DNA of 64,000 nucleotides from an uncultured Flavobacteriales bacterium. GTDB lineage: Bacteria > Bacteroidota > Bacteroidia > Flavobacteriales_F > PHOS-HE28. How positions within the stretch are numbered: position 1 is the stretch's first letter; every line of letters starts with the position of its first letter. Both the position numbers and the translations under genes were made by a program. The notes below the pieces were generated by a model. That model saw only the letters and a program-made list of their open reading frames with translations, did no database searches and was not told the DNA's origin. Below, in pieces: positions 19,678 through 24,536 of the stretch. Location of the stretch: contig CALMPI010000018.1 in assembly GCA_937872175.1 (NCBI GenBank), positions 62,001 to 126,000 of the forward strand, in the 5' to 3' direction.

Positions 19678-20061
19678 ATGAAGCGGGCACTCCTCCCCCT
19701 CGTCGCCTGTGCGGTGCTCTCCGCCTGCGGCACCCACAAGTTCGTGGCCTCCACCCACCCCAACGGCAAGCCTGAGGTGGTCATCTTCATGAAGGGCAAA
19801 GGCGAGGAGGCCGAGAAGGTGATGGAGAAGGTGTACTACCCCAACGGCCAGCTGGAGTACACCGGCCACTTCCTCAACGGCGTGGAGCACGGGCAGTGGA
19901 CCTACTTCTATGAGAGCGGCACCAAGAAGTACCTGGAGAGCTGGGAGAACGGCCTGGAGCATGGCGTCCATTACGACTACAGCCCCGACGGCCAGATCTA
20001 CCGCGAGCTGCACTACGAGCAGGGCAAGCTGGTGAAGGAGGTGGACCGCAGCAAGCGGTAG
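19678..20061 (+). CDS. Lipoprotein with MORN-like (YwqK-type) repeats
   Basis: The 127-residue protein has a lipobox (ALLPLVACAVLSACGT, Cys near residue 17), so it is probably a lipoprotein. The rest holds MORN-variant repeats: YYPNGQLEYTGHFLNGVEHGQWTYFY (split as YPNGQLEYTG and NGVEHGQWTYF), SWENGLEHGVHYDYSPDG and LHYEQGKLV. Such repeats are frequent in Bacteroidota and have no clear enzymatic role. It lies 44 bases after the TonB receptor and could be co-expressed with it. Confidence 0.8.
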   Translation: MKRALLPLVACAVLSACGTHKFVASTHPNGKPEVVIFMKGKGEEAEKVMEKVYYPNGQLEYTGHFLNGVEHGQWTYFYESGTKKYLESWENGLEHGVHYDYSPDGQIYRELHYEQGKLVKEVDRSKR

Positions 20062-20160
20062 CGGTACGCCCCGTTCGAGAGCCCGTTCCATACACGGCAC
20101 CAGGCGCAGTCGTCTCTTCTCCTTCGCCCGCGTTCGTAACACGGGTGAACTCACACACGC

Positions 20161-20231
20161 GCGCGAGAGTCCACGCTCGTGCGTCGGCCCCTCGCGTCAG
20201 GCGTTCAAGGCACGAGCGTGGACGCTCGCGC
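20161..20231. repeat. Long imperfect inverted repeat upstream of the recombinase gene
   Basis: Arms at 20161-20182 and 20210-20231 are 22 bases each and match at 21 positions, with a 27-base loop. The core shared by both arms is TCCACGCTCGTGC and its complement. It lies in the 258-base gap between the MORN lipoprotein and the tyrosine recombinase. It is not followed by a T-run, so it does not look like a simple terminator. It could be a dispersed palindromic repeat or a recombination-related hairpin. Confidence 0.6.
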
Positions 20232-20319
20232 CAGAAGTGGGCACCCGCCCGGTGACCACCTACCGCACCATGGCACGACCACCGCTGAGTCCCATGCGCT
20301 GTTATCTTGCCTTTCCGCC

Positions 20320-21534
20320 ATGGACGAAAAGGCCATCGATCGTGCCGTCCGGTTGGAGCACCTGGTGCATCACGCCCAGCGGTGCATCGCCCTGCACTTC
20401 CCCTTTGATGCCGGGTTGATCGCGGCCGCCAAGCACGCCGGAGCCCGGTGGAGCAAGACCCACCGGTGCTGGTATACGCCCAACGCACCCGAGCACCTTC
20501 AGGAGATCTTCACGGCGTTCAAAGGCAAGGCCTGGGTGGACATGAACGGCTTGCGGAAGAAGGCCGGAACGGCGGCACCCGCCCGATCGATGACCCCGCC
20601 CGCAATACAGGCCCGTGTGGCCGGTGGAGCGAAGCCCCTGGCCCCCGCACCCGCCGCAGCACGCCCAACGACCGCAGCGACCGCCCTGTCCAACGTCCAG
20701 GAGGATGCGCTGGCCACCATGCGCCGCAAACTCGAGATCGGCCGGTACAGTCCGCGCAGCATCCAGGTGTACCTCGGTGCCACCAAGCAGCTCTTTCAGC
20801 ACTTCCCGAACAAGCATCCGAACGACATCCGCACGGAGGACATCGAGGCCTTCCAACACCATCTCGCCTCGGTCCGCAAGGTGAGCAACAGCACCCTGAA
20901 CCAGGCGGTGAACGCCATCCGCTACTACTATATGAACGTGCTGGGCGATGAGCGGCGGGTATCCTTCATCGAGCGGCCAAGGTCGGAGCGCAAGCTGCCA
21001 TCCGTGCTTAGTGAAGAGGAGGTCACAGCCATATTGGGTAGCGTGGCCAACCTCAAGCATCAATGCATCCTCATGCTCATTTACTCGGCCGGGTTGCGCT
21101 TGGGAGAGTTGATCCACCTGCACCGCACGGACATCATCCCCGAACGCAAGCAGGTCGTGATCCGCGGCGGCAAGGGTCGAAAGGACCGGATCACGATCCT
21201 AAGTCCAAAAGTGCTGGCCAAGCTGGACGCCTACATCGAGGAGTACAGGCCGAAGGAGTACCTTTTCGAAGGCCAGAACGGCGGCCCCTATTCGGACACC
21301 AGCGTGCAGGCGATCTTCAAACAGGCCAAGGCAAAGGCTGGGATCACCGCACCGGCCACTGTTCATACGCTGAGGCACTCCTTTGCCACCCACCTCTTGG
21401 AGAAAGGGACCGACCTGCGCTACATTCAAACCCTGCTAGGCCACTCGAGCAGCAAGACCACCGAGATCTACACCCATGTCAGCACCAAGGCCCTTGGCAA
21501 GATCCGCAGCCCCCTGGATGACCTCGACCTGTGA
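20320..21534 (+). CDS. Tyrosine recombinase, integron-integrase-like, with extra N-terminal domain
   Basis: The 404-residue protein has all catalytic residues: Arg260 (SAGLRLGEL), Lys285 (GGKGRKDR), His349 and Arg352 (HTLRHSFATH), His375 (LLGHSSSKTT) and Tyr384 (IYTHV). The core-binding SAM-like domain covers about residues 127-215. The C-terminal end, IRSPLDDL, closely matches the end of integron integrases as I recall IntI1. Only 63 residues separate Lys285 from His349, so the extra integron-specific insertion (I2 region) of classical IntI is absent. Residues 1-75 form an added domain with GARWSKTHRCWYTP, resembling DUF5710/HARP-type modules. The next 100 bases lead to an attC-bearing cassette. 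The annotation as XerC/D-like cannot be excluded. Confidence 0.88.
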   Translation: MDEKAIDRAVRLEHLVHHAQRCIALHFPFDAGLIAAAKHAGARWSKTHRCWYTPNAPEHLQEIFTAFKGKAWVDMNGLRKKAGTAAPARSMTPPAIQARVAGGAKPLAPAPAAARPTTAATALSNVQEDALATMRRKLEIGRYSPRSIQVYLGATKQLFQHFPNKHPNDIRTEDIEAFQHHLASVRKVSNSTLNQAVNAIRYYYMNVLGDERRVSFIERPRSERKLPSVLSEEEVTAILGSVANLKHQCILMLIYSAGLRLGELIHLHRTDIIPERKQVVIRGGKGRKDRITILSPKVLAKLDAYIEEYRPKEYLFEGQNGGPYSDTSVQAIFKQAKAKAGITAPATVHTLRHSFATHLLEKGTDLRYIQTLLGHSSSKTTEIYTHVSTKALGKIRSPLDDLDL

Positions 21535-21633
21535 TGAACAGTTGGGCTTTTGCGTCTGCTATTGCACAATTGAACCCACTCCCTACCCCAACCAAGTCCG
21601 GAAATAAACCCCACTCTGGGTACAACCGATAAG
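21535..21633. other. attI-like segment between recombinase and cassette
   Basis: This is a 99-base non-coding stretch right after the recombinase stop. It ends in G followed by TTGTAGCAC (cut point between 21633 and 21634), and a GTTGGGC core-like motif (fits GTTRRRY) lies at 21541-21547. Part of it contains an imperfect inverted pair (TTGAACCC and GGGTACAA). If the downstream segment is an inserted cassette, this would be the left half of the recipient site. The right half would resume at TTGAAC (22499). Confidence 0.45.
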
Positions 21634-22498
21634 TTGTAGCACATTTAAGAAAACCGAATGAAAAGAAAAATTCCGATAATATTTATTGTTCTCTTGACTT
21701 TGACTTCTTGTGACTGTCAATACCATTTATCAGGAGTTGTTTTGGACAAATTGACAAAGAAACCAATACAAGATGTTGCAATTGGAAAAACAGACTCAAC
21801 CGACTTGGAAAATCCATTCAACAGAAAAACAATGACAGGTGAGAATGGAGACTATGAAATTTATGGAATTGCAGGAAGATGCAATGAAATAACTATGTTT
21901 TTTACGAAAGATGGATACGAATCAAAAAAGATAACCTTTCAAAACAACTCGACAGACACGATTTTACTTCAACCAAAGACTAAACAGCAGACCTCAATAT
22001 TTGACTTCAATAAAGACTTTGAAATAATAGACCTTCAAAAATCAAATGACTATCCATCTTCTGACACAGATACGACTGTTTGCATCAAATGGACTTTGAA
22101 TAAATCAGAAGTTAAAAAGATAATCAAAGAATCAAAGCCAATTAGCGGACCAGAATGGCACCATTTGTTCGGACACTATCCTTGTAGAATACACGGAAAA
22201 ATACTTCAAAATTCTAACGAGTTTGAGTATTCCATAAATAGCGGAGCTTGGTTTACAGTAAGTTCATCTGACACGACATTGATTTTTGGAAGTTTTAATG
22301 AAGAGAATAATAAATATTTCCTCGATTCCGCTTGGACAGAAGAAGAAATGGAAGGAAATGAATAAAAACGTGCTACAACAGCGTATATAACTTATGGCGG
22401 GGAAAGTGGTAAATTCAACCTTTGTACTTTTAAGTAAATTTGGTGCTAGCCGACAAGAAAGTGCTTCGAAAACCGCCACAAGTCATATACGCAAAACG
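21634..22498 (+). mobile_element. Putative integron-type gene cassette (single gene plus attC)
   Basis: This 865-base segment is strikingly AT-rich (the line of 60 bases from 21661 has 17 G or C) inside a GC-rich chromosome. Its left edge reads G-TTGTAGCAC. Its right edge is a folded site whose outer left box, GTGCTACAAC (22370-22379), is the exact complement of that left-edge sequence, and the edge ends with G before TTGAAC. In integron cassettes the outer right box of attC is completed by the first bases of the same cassette in its circular form, which is what this arrangement predicts. It carries one lipoprotein gene starting 24 bases inside. Confidence 0.65.
21658..22365 (+). CDS. AT-rich cassette-borne lipoprotein with carboxypeptidase-regulatory-like fold
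   Basis: The 235-residue protein has a lipobox (IFIVLLTLTSCDC), so lipidation is likely. It then has a CarboxypepD_reg-like region: LSGVVLDKLTKKPIQDVAI, GENGDYEIYGIAG and FFTKDGYESKKITF. The C-terminal part is unlike anything I recognise. Codon and base use differ sharply from every neighbour, which indicates recent acquisition from a low-GC Bacteroidota source. It has no obvious resistance or toxin function. Its start lies only 24 bases from the cassette edge and its stop lies 4 bases before the attC-like site, as is usual for cassette genes. Confidence 0.8.
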   Translation: MKRKIPIIFIVLLTLTSCDCQYHLSGVVLDKLTKKPIQDVAIGKTDSTDLENPFNRKTMTGENGDYEIYGIAGRCNEITMFFTKDGYESKKITFQNNSTDTILLQPKTKQQTSIFDFNKDFEIIDLQKSNDYPSSDTDTTVCIKWTLNKSEVKKIIKESKPISGPEWHHLFGHYPCRIHGKILQNSNEFEYSINSGAWFTVSSSDTTLIFGSFNEENNKYFLDSAWTEEEMEGNE

Positions 22499-22504
22499 TT
22501 GAAC
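22370..22504. repeat. attC-like recombination site
   Basis: The outer left box GTGCTACAAC is at 22370-22379 and the inner left arm GCGTATATAACTTATGGCGG at 22381-22400. A 72-base loop follows, then the inner right arm at 22473-22492, which complements the left arm at 18 of 20 positions with two isolated A-C mismatches. A 5-base spacer leads to the right core GTTGAAC (22498-22504, fits GTTRRRY). Unequal spacers on the two sides (1 base left, 5 bases right) match the unpaired central spacer of known attC sites. Confidence 0.65.
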
Positions 22505-22539
22505 GCCATCGCGCCCAAAGCGGCGCGCCAGCGTCCAAC
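22498..22539. repeat. Hairpin starting at the right cassette core site
   Basis: GTTGAACGC (22498-22506) pairs with GCGTCCAAC (22531-22539) at 8 of 9 positions, and an inner CGCGCC pairs with GGCGCG around a CAAAGC loop. It is GC-rich like the chromosome, so it probably belonged to the recipient site before cassette insertion. Its function is unknown. The remaining bases up to 22592 hold no feature I can name. Confidence 0.45.
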
Positions 22540-22592
22540 TGCGAATGACCACCGCAGGTAGGCAGCACGCGCCGCTCACGAACCGTACAAGG

Positions 22593-22624
22593 CACCTACG
22601 CGAACTGCCGCACGCTAGTGCGGA
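22593..22624. repeat. 32-base direct repeat, copy 1 (remnant of rocD 3' end)
   Basis: It matches 23232-23263 at 31 of 32 positions. The second copy is the stop region and last codons of the ornithine aminotransferase gene, so this copy is a displaced fragment of that gene's 3' end. Inside is a short palindrome, CCGCAC-GCTA-GTGCGG. The toxin-antitoxin pair 22652-23184 lies between the copies. Confidence 0.75.
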
Positions 22625-22651
22625 AAAGGTCCTGATGCACCATAGCTGGAC

Positions 22652-22957
22652 CTACAGCTCTCCGCGCATTCCTTGGAACCGTTGCGTCCGCACATCGATC
22701 AACTCCAAGAGGATCAGTAGCTCATCGTCCAACCGGTAGAAGAGGCGCACCTGGCGCGCGACCGGAATGCTCCGGATCCCGAGCTCGGGCCGTTCAAGGA
22801 TCCCGCCTTCGGGAAAAGCGACCAGGAGGTCCACCGTGTGTTCCACCTCCCCGAAGAACGCCTGGGCTGCTGCCACGCCCCATTCCTGACGGATGTAGGC
22901 GAGGATCTCTCCGAAGGTCTCGTCGGCCTGGATCGTCCAGACCGGCCGCCGGCTCAT
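22652..22957 (-). CDS. RelE/ParE-family toxin (first TA module)
   Basis: The 101-residue protein has the RelE/ParE pattern: WTIQADETFGEILAYIRQEWG at the N-terminus, FPEGGILERPELGIRSIPVARQVRLFYRLDDE in the middle and LIDVRTQRFQ near the end. The central arginine-rich strand is typical. ParE members poison gyrase and RelE members cleave mRNA on ribosomes; sequence does not decide here. The start overlaps the antitoxin stop by 4 bases (ATGA), giving antitoxin-first order. Confidence 0.82.
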   Translation of the reverse strand: MSRRPVWTIQADETFGEILAYIRQEWGVAAAQAFFGEVEHTVDLLVAFPEGGILERPELGIRSIPVARQVRLFYRLDDELLILLELIDVRTQRFQGMRGEL

Positions 22958-23184
22958 GGTCGATGTCGCTTGAACACCTCTTCCGCCGAACGCAGGTTCG
23001 CCGGGTCCTTCGAGGCCTCATGCGCTCGGAGGACGCGCTCCTGTTGCTCCACCGTCAACGTATTCCACACACCGTTGTCCGCGGCCGCGCTGATGAGAAG
23101 TTCGTGCACCCGGGCGAGCAAGGCCTCGCTCTGGATCGAGTCCACCAAGGCATGAAGGCGGTCACGTAGGGCGGTCGTGTTCAT
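22954..23184 (-). CDS. Antitoxin of the first TA module
   Basis: The 76-residue acidic helical protein (NTTALRDRLHALVDSIQSEALLARVHELL, split as LRDRLHALVDSI and LLARVHELLISA; then EQQERVLRAHEASKD and AEEVFKRHR) resembles the addiction-module components that precede ParE/RelE toxins in Bacteroidota and Cyanobacteria. ATG 23184 is preferred, with ATG 23202 possible. It lies 50 bases downstream of the rocD stop on the same strand, inside the segment bounded by 32-base direct repeats. Confidence 0.75.
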   Translation of the reverse strand: MNTTALRDRLHALVDSIQSEALLARVHELLISAAADNGVWNTLTVEQQERVLRAHEASKDPANLRSAEEVFKRHRP

Positions 23185-23231
23185 GGCGTGTGATGTGACC
23201 ATAAAGGTAGCGCCCACCCGCTCACTTCGTC

Positions 23232-23263
23232 CACCTACGCGAACTGCCGCACGCTGGTGCGGA
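23232..23263. repeat. 32-base direct repeat, copy 2 (native rocD 3' end)
   Basis: It covers the rocD stop codon and the last nine codons. The matching copy is at 22593-22624, with a period of 639 bases. This placement is what a site-specific insertion at the 3' end of a gene leaves behind, because such insertions keep the gene intact. Confidence 0.75.
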
Positions 23264-24536
23264 TGATGTTCACGCACTCCATCAGCTGCTCGGCGGTGAT
23301 CACCAGCGGCGGGGCGAAGCGGATGATGTCGCCGTGGGTGGGCTTGGCCAGCAGGCCGTTGTCGCGCAGGAGCAGGCAAAGCTCCCAGGCGCTCTTCGGG
23401 CTGCCATCCGGCGCCGTGCGGGCTTCGATCACGAGCGCATTCAGCAGCCCGCGGCCGCGCACCAGCTTCACGAAAGGGTACTCCTCCACCAGCTTCCGCA
23501 TCTCGGCACGGAACAACTCACCGAGCCGGTCGGCGTTGCCGCACAGGTCCTCGTCCTGCACGATGCCGAGCGCCTCGATGGCCAGGCGCGCGCCCATGGG
23601 GTTGCCGCCGTAGGTGCTGCCGTGGGTGCCGGGGGTGAAGACGTTCATCACCGCATCGCCGGCCAGCACGGCGCTCACCGGGTACATGCCGCCGCTGAGG
23701 GCCTTGGCGAGGATCACCACATCGGGGCGCTGCACCCCTTCGCGTGCTTCGCAGAGGCCCTTGGTGCAGTGGCAGCCGCTGTGGTGGCAGGAGGCGAGCA
23801 GCCGGCCGGTGCGCGCGATGCCGGTCTGGATCTCGTCCGCGATGAAGAGCACGTTGCGGGCCTTGCAGGCGGCGATGGCGCGGGGGATGTAGTCGTCGGC
23901 CGGCACGTACACGCCTTTCTCCCCCTGGATGGGTTCCACCAGGAAGGCGCAGACGTGCGGGTCCGCCAGCGCCTTCTCCAGCGCAGGGATGTCGTCGTAG
24001 GGGATCACCTCGAAGCCGGGCGTGAAGGGCCCGAAGCCGCCCTGGCTGTCGGGGTCGGTGCTCATGCTGACGATGGTGATGGTGCGGCCGTGGAAGTTGC
24101 CCTCGCACACGATCACCTTCGCCCGCCCCGCCGGGATGCCCTTCTTCTCGTAGCCCCACTTGCGCGCCATCTTGATCGCCGACTCCACCGCCTCGGCGCC
24201 GGTGTTCATGGGCAGCATGCGGTCGTAGCCGAAGAGGGTGCACACGGTGCGGGCGTATTCGCCGAGCACGCTGTTGTAGAAGGCGCGGCTGGTGAGCGTC
24301 ATGCGCGTGGCCTGCTCCTGCATCACCTTCACGAGGCGCGGGTGGCAGTGGCCCTGGTTCACGGCGCTGTAGGCGCTGAGGAAGTCGTAGTAGCGCTTGC
24401 CTTCCACATCCCACACGAACACGCCCTTGCCGCTGTCGAGCACCACCGGAAGGGGGTGGTAGTTGTGGGCCCCGTAGTGCTCCTCGAGCTCGATGGCCTG
24501 CTGGGTGCGGGTGCGGATGCTGGACTGGATCGACAT
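23235..24536 (-). CDS. rocD: Ornithine--oxo-acid aminotransferase with a Cys/His-rich insertion
   Basis: The 433-residue class III PLP aminotransferase converts L-ornithine and 2-oxoglutarate to glutamate semialdehyde and glutamate. Key parts are [43 protein letters not shown], the PLP lysine Lys278 in ILAKALSGG, and [12 protein letters not shown]. Between RTGRLLA and PDVVILAK the usual short CDHE-type linker is replaced by about 20 residues containing four Cys and three His (residues 249-268). ATG 24536 is chosen from the conserved N-terminus. The gene is flanked by two toxin-antitoxin modules, and the 3' end is duplicated at 22593. Confidence 0.93.

Follow-up and report, generated by a model that had tools for sequence, protein, structure and literature searches.

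The 64-kb window analysed here, positions 62001-126000 of contig C18 in the 4.3-Mb genome of an uncultured Flavobacteriales bacterium (G000), very probably carries a small chromosomal integron-like platform, in which one cassette bearing a lipoprotein gene sits between an attI-like leader and a right-hand terminal element, beside the gene for a tyrosine recombinase, P0001. At the sequence level this reading is carried by the leader, the cassette boundaries, the pairing between cassette start and cassette end, the empty and refilled versions of the locus, the arrays in relatives, and the recombinase family. The platform appears integron-like in its working, but by the tests made its recombinase is not IntI; as the anatomy is that of an integron and the IntI-defining feature is lacking, the locus would represent a variant that current definitions miss.

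Integron anatomy is present as (i) a recombinase gene adjoining the insertion point, (ii) a conserved leader that takes cassettes at G|TT and stands empty at two loci (L081 and contig C37), (iii) an attC hairpin with R'' and R' boxes and a cassette start complementary to R'', and (iv) in relatives, tandem arrays of mostly one-gene cassettes in one direction, the window itself having one cassette.

Organization of the locus

The open reading frames (ORFs) and other features of the locus are the following.

20320..21534, + strand: tyrosine recombinase P0001, the proposed integrase, 404 aa (complete ORF, library matches)
20344..20559, + strand: N-terminal module, about residues 9-80 of P0001 (common in the family, not found in IntI)
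21535..21633, + strand: attI-like leader, ending in the core ACAACCGATAA|GTT (comparison with contig C45 and same-genus leaders)
21633..21642, + strand: cassette start (1R) GTTGTAGCAC, complement of R'' (read directly)
21634..22498, + strand: gene cassette, 865 nt, between two G|TT points (missing at the orthologous locus L081)
21658..22365, + strand: single cargo ORF P0002, 235 aa (probable lipoprotein, carboxypeptidase-regulatory-like domain)
22370..22504, + strand: attC-like site, with R'' at 22370-22379, spacer AAAAC, and R' GTTGAAC at 22498-22504 (folding, comparison, profile)
22498..22555, + strand: right-hand terminal element, a short hairpin GTTGAACGC...GCGTCCAAC followed by TGCGAATGACCACCGC (array end in relatives)

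The recombinase stop codon and GTTGTAGCAC have 98 bases between them, and GTGCTACAAC at 22370-22379 is the exact 10-base reverse complement of GTTGTAGCAC. The original prediction, made from the letters of this DNA, had given these two sequences with coordinates and GTTGAAC as the core at the right edge; direct reading found them exact to the base, GTTGAAC lying at 22498-22504. The prediction had taken the locus to be integron-like, and the leader, the cassette, the pairing, and the refilled and empty loci of relatives support that view. The last 34 bases of the leader fall within a 44-nt match (91%) next to a degraded recombinase end on contig C45 of the same genome. The cassette body has a G+C content of 33%, and the window 66%. 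P0002 matches CarboxypepD_reg at 2.3e-05, which is below the Pfam cut-off; its signal and Cys were read from the sequence, and it had no match in plasmids.

Within the terminal segment, 22381-22400 and 22473-22492 can pair as a stem of 20 positions. A profile built from the 134-nt-type sites of other loci, the window's own being left out, finds 22375-22502 with an E value of 2.3e-13, its sole match at 1 or better in the 64-kb window; the same profile misses the short, 66-nt site of contig C45. By BLAST, the window attC has no second full copy in its own genome, where the two other matches cover 15 and 19 bases and one of them is the right edge on C45. An Rfam scan of 20000-23300 returned three matches, all below gathering scores.

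The terminal element is present in three copies in this genome (C18, C45, and C37), and its pattern was found in 12 of the 45 genomes of the set searched (0/45 for the reversed-pattern control). Several arrays in the genus end with the short hairpin element, followed by GAATGACCACCGC or a near variant. The hairpin is conserved, has paired ends of its own, and is retained even at cassette-free loci. Beyond it, a ParE-toxin-like gene and a small ORF (22617-23233) lie between the array end and an aminotransferase gene. This segment has no match in the relatives' fetched loci, and 22 bases of the aminotransferase gene end are repeated on its two flanks, at 22595-22616 and 23234-23255.

Pairing, empty sites, and exchanged cassettes within the genus

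Relatives of P0001 (E value 1e-40 or better) were found in 26 of 45 searched genomes, all labelled as of the same genus and the window's own included. We fetched 28 same-genus stretches and examined the DNA downstream of the recombinase stop where the end was usable. The leaders run roughly 90-180 nt from the end of the recombinase match and end in GTT; beyond them the DNA differs in most of these genomes, recombinase and leader being alike.

For the pairing test, the leader end was fixed from the leader alignment alone at 23 same-genus loci. The inverted 8-mer of the cassette start was found again downstream at 17 of the 23, compared with 77 of 559 random GTT 8-mers, so the terminal pairing that had been read at the window's two cassette ends is not tied to the gene carried there. 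A stem scoring at least 19 begins at all 17 recurrences (17/17) versus 38 of 920 random NNNNNAAC positions. Base 9, unused in the selection, is complementary in 17/17 recurrences and base 10 in 14/17. The 8-mer did not recur at six loci (L041, L049, L051, L057, and the short L048 and L053). Because the larger set of sites described below was chosen partly by stem score, this test is the cleaner proof of pairing.

An empty site had been predicted, and one was found at the orthologous locus L081 (contig C34 of genome G006), whose left flank matches the window at 92% over 1109 nt and whose right flank, on the aminotransferase side, at 89% over 1355 nt. Here ...CAACCGACGA is directly joined to GTTGAACGCC, and the recombinase is mostly gone, with a remnant left. 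Genome G029 (L040) shares the left flank with the window (96% over 2320 nt), and its first cassette is 2.7 kb long with a DNA methyltransferase ORF. One locus is seen in three states, with a lipoprotein cassette (window), with a methyltransferase cassette (G029), and empty (L081). Two further platforms exist in the window's own genome. On C45, not far from where the contig stops, a window-type leader comes after a degraded recombinase end and is followed by a 3.1-kb cassette encoding a methyltransferase and a Bpu10I-like endonuclease. On C37 (L070, 1190-1380), a second leader type is fused directly to the terminal element GTTGACCGCC with no recombinase adjoining, providing another empty site. 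Relatives with different cassettes likewise bear out the expectation of other cargo beside the same recombinase.

The first cassettes of L006 (C45, 16886-19048), L040, L043, and L064 hold DNA methyltransferase ORFs that oppose the array direction (L043 by eye only); with the Bpu10I-like endonuclease of C45, these may act as stabilising modules. The first cassette of L044 (genome G023) encodes a dihydropteroate synthase nearest Sul3 (352 bits, below the resistance cut-off of 475). At L045, the adjacent cassettes 4 and 5 are both 945 nt long with identical ORF and attC, as tandem duplication would leave.

Cassette arrays beyond the genus

A scan of named records yielded at least 588 stretches, 573 of which encode a P0001 relative; the best 80 were kept. 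These 80 loci are mostly from Bacteroidota, including Winogradskyella, Arenibacter, Aquimarina, Flavobacterium, Algoriphagus, and Bacteroidales, and a few are metagenome-assembled genomes (MAGs) labelled Nitrospirae, Spirochaetes, WOR-3, Undinarchaeales, Ignavibacteria, Desulfurellales, or Deltaproteobacteria. L110, L125, L128, L148, and L167 lie on MAG contigs labelled Undinarchaeales, Nitrospirae, WOR-3, Spirochaetes, and Deltaproteobacteria, which points to either transfer or binning error.

A strict cassette test was passed by 40 of the best 80 loci, with chains of up to 7 cassettes. Its controls were run on loci with at least 1500 nt downstream. In the same genus, 17 of 22 loci passed, and the controls gave 3/440 for shuffles, 1/22 for reverse strands, and 0/62 for upstream windows; for the named records the counts were 35/44 versus 48/880, 7/44, and 6/407, respectively. 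Three loci had been left out before the test, L047 (cut at the recombinase) and L065 and L066 (incomplete recombinase). Cassette 2 of L042 and cassette 3 of L061, which start within the terminal element, were rejected as false chain matches.

Another 30 loci were found with the recombinase model NF040815, all with less than 1.5 kb of DNA available; the 20 that resemble P0001 less (135 bits or below) showed no cassette, and 4 of the 10 that resemble it more showed one. The 20 are mostly XerC/XerD-type by score, and six of them fall with Xer in the 60-row tree described below, L239 being an outlier. Class-wide, P0001-family relatives at an E value of 1e-60 or better occur in 147 of 295 sampled genomes, a cut that lets in members without the N-terminal module and a figure that counts recombinases, not arrays. 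The classical IntI model TIGR02249 scored above its cut-off in 105 of 395 genomes of the phylum; among the 107 IntI-matching genomes listed, one (G081) is of the window's class, the share of that class in the 395 being unstated.

Structure of the attC-like sites

We assembled 131 attC-like sites from 55 loci, dropping sites longer than 215 nt and leaving out L094 and L095, which are the same loci as L040 and L055. Most sites are 125-139 nt long; the median cassette has a length of 844 nt and a G+C content of 32%. In 106 cassettes the longest ORF points away from the recombinase, in 8 it points towards it, and in 17 there is none of at least 50 aa. Among 72 non-redundant sites of the 134-nt type, an A follows R'' in 71 and a stem of about 18 positions comes next; the gap between stem and R' is mostly 4-5 bases, registers 5, 4, and 6 being found in 35, 33, and 4 sites. 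Judged by the arms, 121 of 131 sites fold more stably as the bottom strand, and judged over their full length 108 of 131 do so, counts that are not independent trials because the sites are related.

The recombinase and its N-terminal module

P0001 has the catalytic residues R260, K285, H349, R352, H375, and Y384 and matches Pfam Phage_integrase at 5.6e-38. With 224.9 bits it exceeds the curated cut-off (220) of NF040815 (recomb_XerA_Arch), a broad model that also matches XerC/XerD-type genes and whose NCBI title, 'Site-specific tyrosine recombinase/integron integrase', includes the words 'integron integrase'. It does not reach the IntI cut-off of TIGR02249 (217 bits against 265), and neither the cut-offs of TIGR02224 and TIGR02225 nor its grouping in trees place it in XerC or XerD. 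The best match of its structural model among solved structures is the integron integrase 2a3v (E value 2.3e-16).

The RKHRHY catalytic set is kept in all 111 aligned family members. From the catalytic Lys to the first His there are 63-68 residues in 111/111 family members and 105 in 33/33 IntI; in Escherichia coli XerC and XerD the spacing is 67 and 71. The IntI-specific insertion around patch III is absent from 111/111 family members and present in 33/33 IntI, as the original prediction had noted for P0001 itself.

Of 100 family members, 94 have the added N-terminal module, also pointed out at the start; it was not detected in any of the 34 comparison proteins (30 IntI, IntI1, and three other recombinases of the window's own genome). 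The 100 members, 80 from the named-record scan and 20 from class genomes, are biased towards module-bearing proteins, since one of the two peptide patterns of the scan sits in the module and selection went by the best full-length scores. Among 10 further relatives found with another model, 6 are without the module, and one of these 6 has a cassette. The predicted structure of the module has a predicted local distance difference test (pLDDT) score of 83.7. A Foldseek search with it returned nothing at an E value of 0.001 or better (best, 0.048). VIA-align placed six XPB entries on top (Z 6.5-7.4) and gave the SMARCAL1 HARP domain Z 3.6, both below the tool's trust level. Pfam HARP was detected in 3 of 39 module sequences (best, 0.0012) and DUF5710 in 13 of 39, the window copy being below the cut-off. 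As a lead rather than a result, the ability to read distorted DNA would be a fitting property of the module in a recombinase that binds hairpins.

Relationship to IntI and Xer

In a 67-row tree, the family (98/85) and IntI (100/100) are sister clades (98/95), outside Xer and XerA. In a 60-row tree with the ten further relatives, family and IntI again come together (100/98), here with IntI nested inside the family. IntI is a single clade at 100/100 in both trees with no family row within it, and in neither does the P0001 family fall inside that clade. The two archaeal XerA chains lie outside the branch that unites family and IntI. An approximately unbiased (AU) test does not reject one clade (p 0.567 and 0.524). 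We had considered the family to be the sister of IntI, and dropped this as a firm claim after wider sampling, because that sampling nests IntI inside the family and the AU test does not reject one clade. The trees thus support a grouping of the family with IntI, apart from Xer and XerA, with the branching order, as sister or source, unsettled. A firm placement of the recombinase with XerC/XerD would have counted against the original prediction, and the trees show none; of its suggestion that this is a distinct integron lineage, anatomy and spread are borne out, and the AU test does not settle whether the lineage is a sister of IntI or the stock of IntI.

Proposed mechanism

We postulate that P0001 joins the leader, as attI, at G|TT to circular one-gene cassettes through their folded attC. 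Each cassette would enter beside the integrase gene, mostly reading away from that gene, and its insertion would leave the cassette start at the left and the remainder of attC at the right. The attC would act as folded single-stranded DNA, probably from the bottom strand, and cassettes would move as circles. In the weakest step of the scheme, the N-terminal module might stand in for the IntI insertion in helping to recognise the hairpin.

A broader proposition takes in all of these parts: that Bacteroidota have a second phylum-wide integron class, whose integrase is without the IntI insertion and reads the attC hairpin with an N-terminal domain of damage- or fork-recognition type (XPB damage-recognition domain, HARP), which is the sister or source of classical integrons and forms an unrecognised exit route of tet(X) and similar resistance genes. 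We hold this joint proposition tentatively and judge it slightly less probable than an even chance.

Weighing the explanations

Several findings count against the integron-like reading of the locus. The window site is unremarkable when folded alone (z-scores of -1.15 for the top strand and -1.74 for the bottom strand), so that the case rests on comparison among loci. In that comparison, 5 of 22 same-genus loci (L041, L049, L051, L057, and L067) and 9 of 44 named-record loci (L102, L115, L119, L121, L122, L143, L144, L166, and L171) that have sufficient DNA downstream do not pass the strict test; passes by chance amount to about 5% for shuffles of the AT-rich named set and to 7/44 on reverse strands. 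The test was written on the same data that it judged, and many of the genomes are draft or metagenome assemblies. Both empty sites, L081 and C37, have a remnant recombinase or none. Canonical attC boxes have the consensus RYYYAAC for R'' and GTTRRRY for R', which fit 15 of 131 and 20 of 131 of our sites, respectively. Finally, RNAalifold on a MAFFT alignment of 61 sites found no pair, in our opinion because the arms were misaligned, and an arm-swap test was therefore used instead of a covariance model. The outcome of the arm-swap test speaks for pairing: in the 35 register-5 sites, own arms are 78% Watson-Crick, a figure inflated by the stem criterion of the strict test, and swapped arms 39% (maximum 48%). 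Up to four Watson-Crick types occur per position, and 27 of the 35 have an A-C mismatch at position 14.

Could the platform be an ordinary integron whose integrase is a divergent classical IntI? The common C-terminus, 2a3v as the nearest solved structure, and the grouping of family and IntI in both trees (98/95 and 100/98), one of which nests IntI in the family, would all fit. The Lys-His spacing, however, separates 111/111 family members (63-68) from 33/33 IntI (105), P0001 remains below the TIGR02249 cut-off, the IntI clade stands at 100/100 without any family row, and the N-terminal module was not found in IntI, so we consider this explanation quite unlikely. Still less can be said for Xer/dif-like cassettes moved by the housekeeping XerC/XerD, with the neighbouring recombinase incidental. 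Xer recombinases are related enzymes, and modules flanked by dif-like sites, which are 28 bp long, do occur in other bacteria; yet locus after locus the cassette start comes shortly after a P0001-type recombinase, none of the 20 less similar, mostly XerC/XerD-type loci has a cassette, and the sites are imperfect hairpins, mostly of 128-139 nt, with complementarity to the cassette start.

Leaders and terminal elements are alike between genomes and could offer flanking homology, and the hairpins come after genes; cassettes might then be swapped by homologous recombination, the hairpins being transcription terminators only. Such exchange leaves unexplained why cassette start and end are complementary, why junctions change along multi-cassette chains, why the fold favours one strand, and why arrays occur in remote genera with unlike leaders, and we give it hardly any credence. 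We therefore retain the integron-like platform as the explanation of the locus.

Comparison with known systems

The literature is cited here from portions of open-licence papers in PMC. In that material, an additional domain around patch III is a defining trait of IntI (PMC9668308), and the insertion is described as not fully conserved in an integron-like subgroup, yet essential for integron function (PMC8138268). Integrons were reported as rare in Bacteroidetes: formerly only In0 elements had been described, and a single complete integron was added later, in Salinibacter ruber, alongside integrons of Chlorobi and Ignavibacteriae (PMC9024848); Bacteroidota are also among the phyla listed with integrons (PMC8618304). 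Nowhere in these portions is the present recombinase family assigned to a cassette system as its integrase; preprints and most subscription papers lie outside their scope, so that a prior description is possible. Many Bacteroidota, a phylum with only rare earlier reports of integrons, have similar platforms with different cargo. Should cassettes be captured without the insertion, it would become possible to test how attC is recognised and where integrons came from.

The P0001 platforms resemble classical IntI integrons (class 1, chromosomal, and archaeal) in having a recombinase, an attI, and mostly one-gene cassettes that end in attC, in their G|TT joints, in a cassette start complementary to R'', in a favoured bottom-strand fold, in their mostly single direction, and in 2a3v as the nearest solved structure of the P0001 model. 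They differ in that the recombinase family is without the IntI insertion and most members have the N-terminal module. The recombinase reads towards the cassettes, and in the genus of the window a hairpin element closes the arrays. The common site is also distinct, at about 134 nt with a left spacer of 1 nt and a right spacer of 4-5 nt. P0001 is like the XerA type of NF040815 in scoring above that cut-off; unlike it, archaeal XerA branches outside the group of family and IntI.

Two reports on resistance genes describe elements that may be compared with these platforms. In Riemerella anatipestifer, aph(3')-IVb entered the chromosome as a unit with 27 bp on its 5' side and 140 bp on its 3' side; an attC-like fold was reported for the 140 bp, with no flanking homology and the mechanism unknown, and the portion cited names no recombinase, its authors having found no integron within 100 kb of the entry site (PMC13148043). 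We liken this 140-bp segment to the family sites from its published description only. On Acinetobacter plasmids, the 'xerD'/TnpF product encoded beside tet(X3) is 54% identical to residues 146-404 of P0001. At L206 (plasmid pHH1107, 6103-8259), behind TnpF ('xerD') come leader-like DNA, then tet(X3), and last the left portion of an attC-like site, which the profile detects at an E value of 0.013 (best reversed-sequence control, 0.58). Unlike the platforms described here, this locus has a truncated recombinase and site and a mismatched cassette start and R'', and the strict cassette test found nothing in it. The cited portion of PMC7473080 places xerD beside several tet(X) genes, in opposite orientation at tet(X14), a misfit with the present layout by that paper's description, and asks, leaving the matter open, whether xerD moves tet(X). 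The recombinase family described here is a candidate answer to that question.

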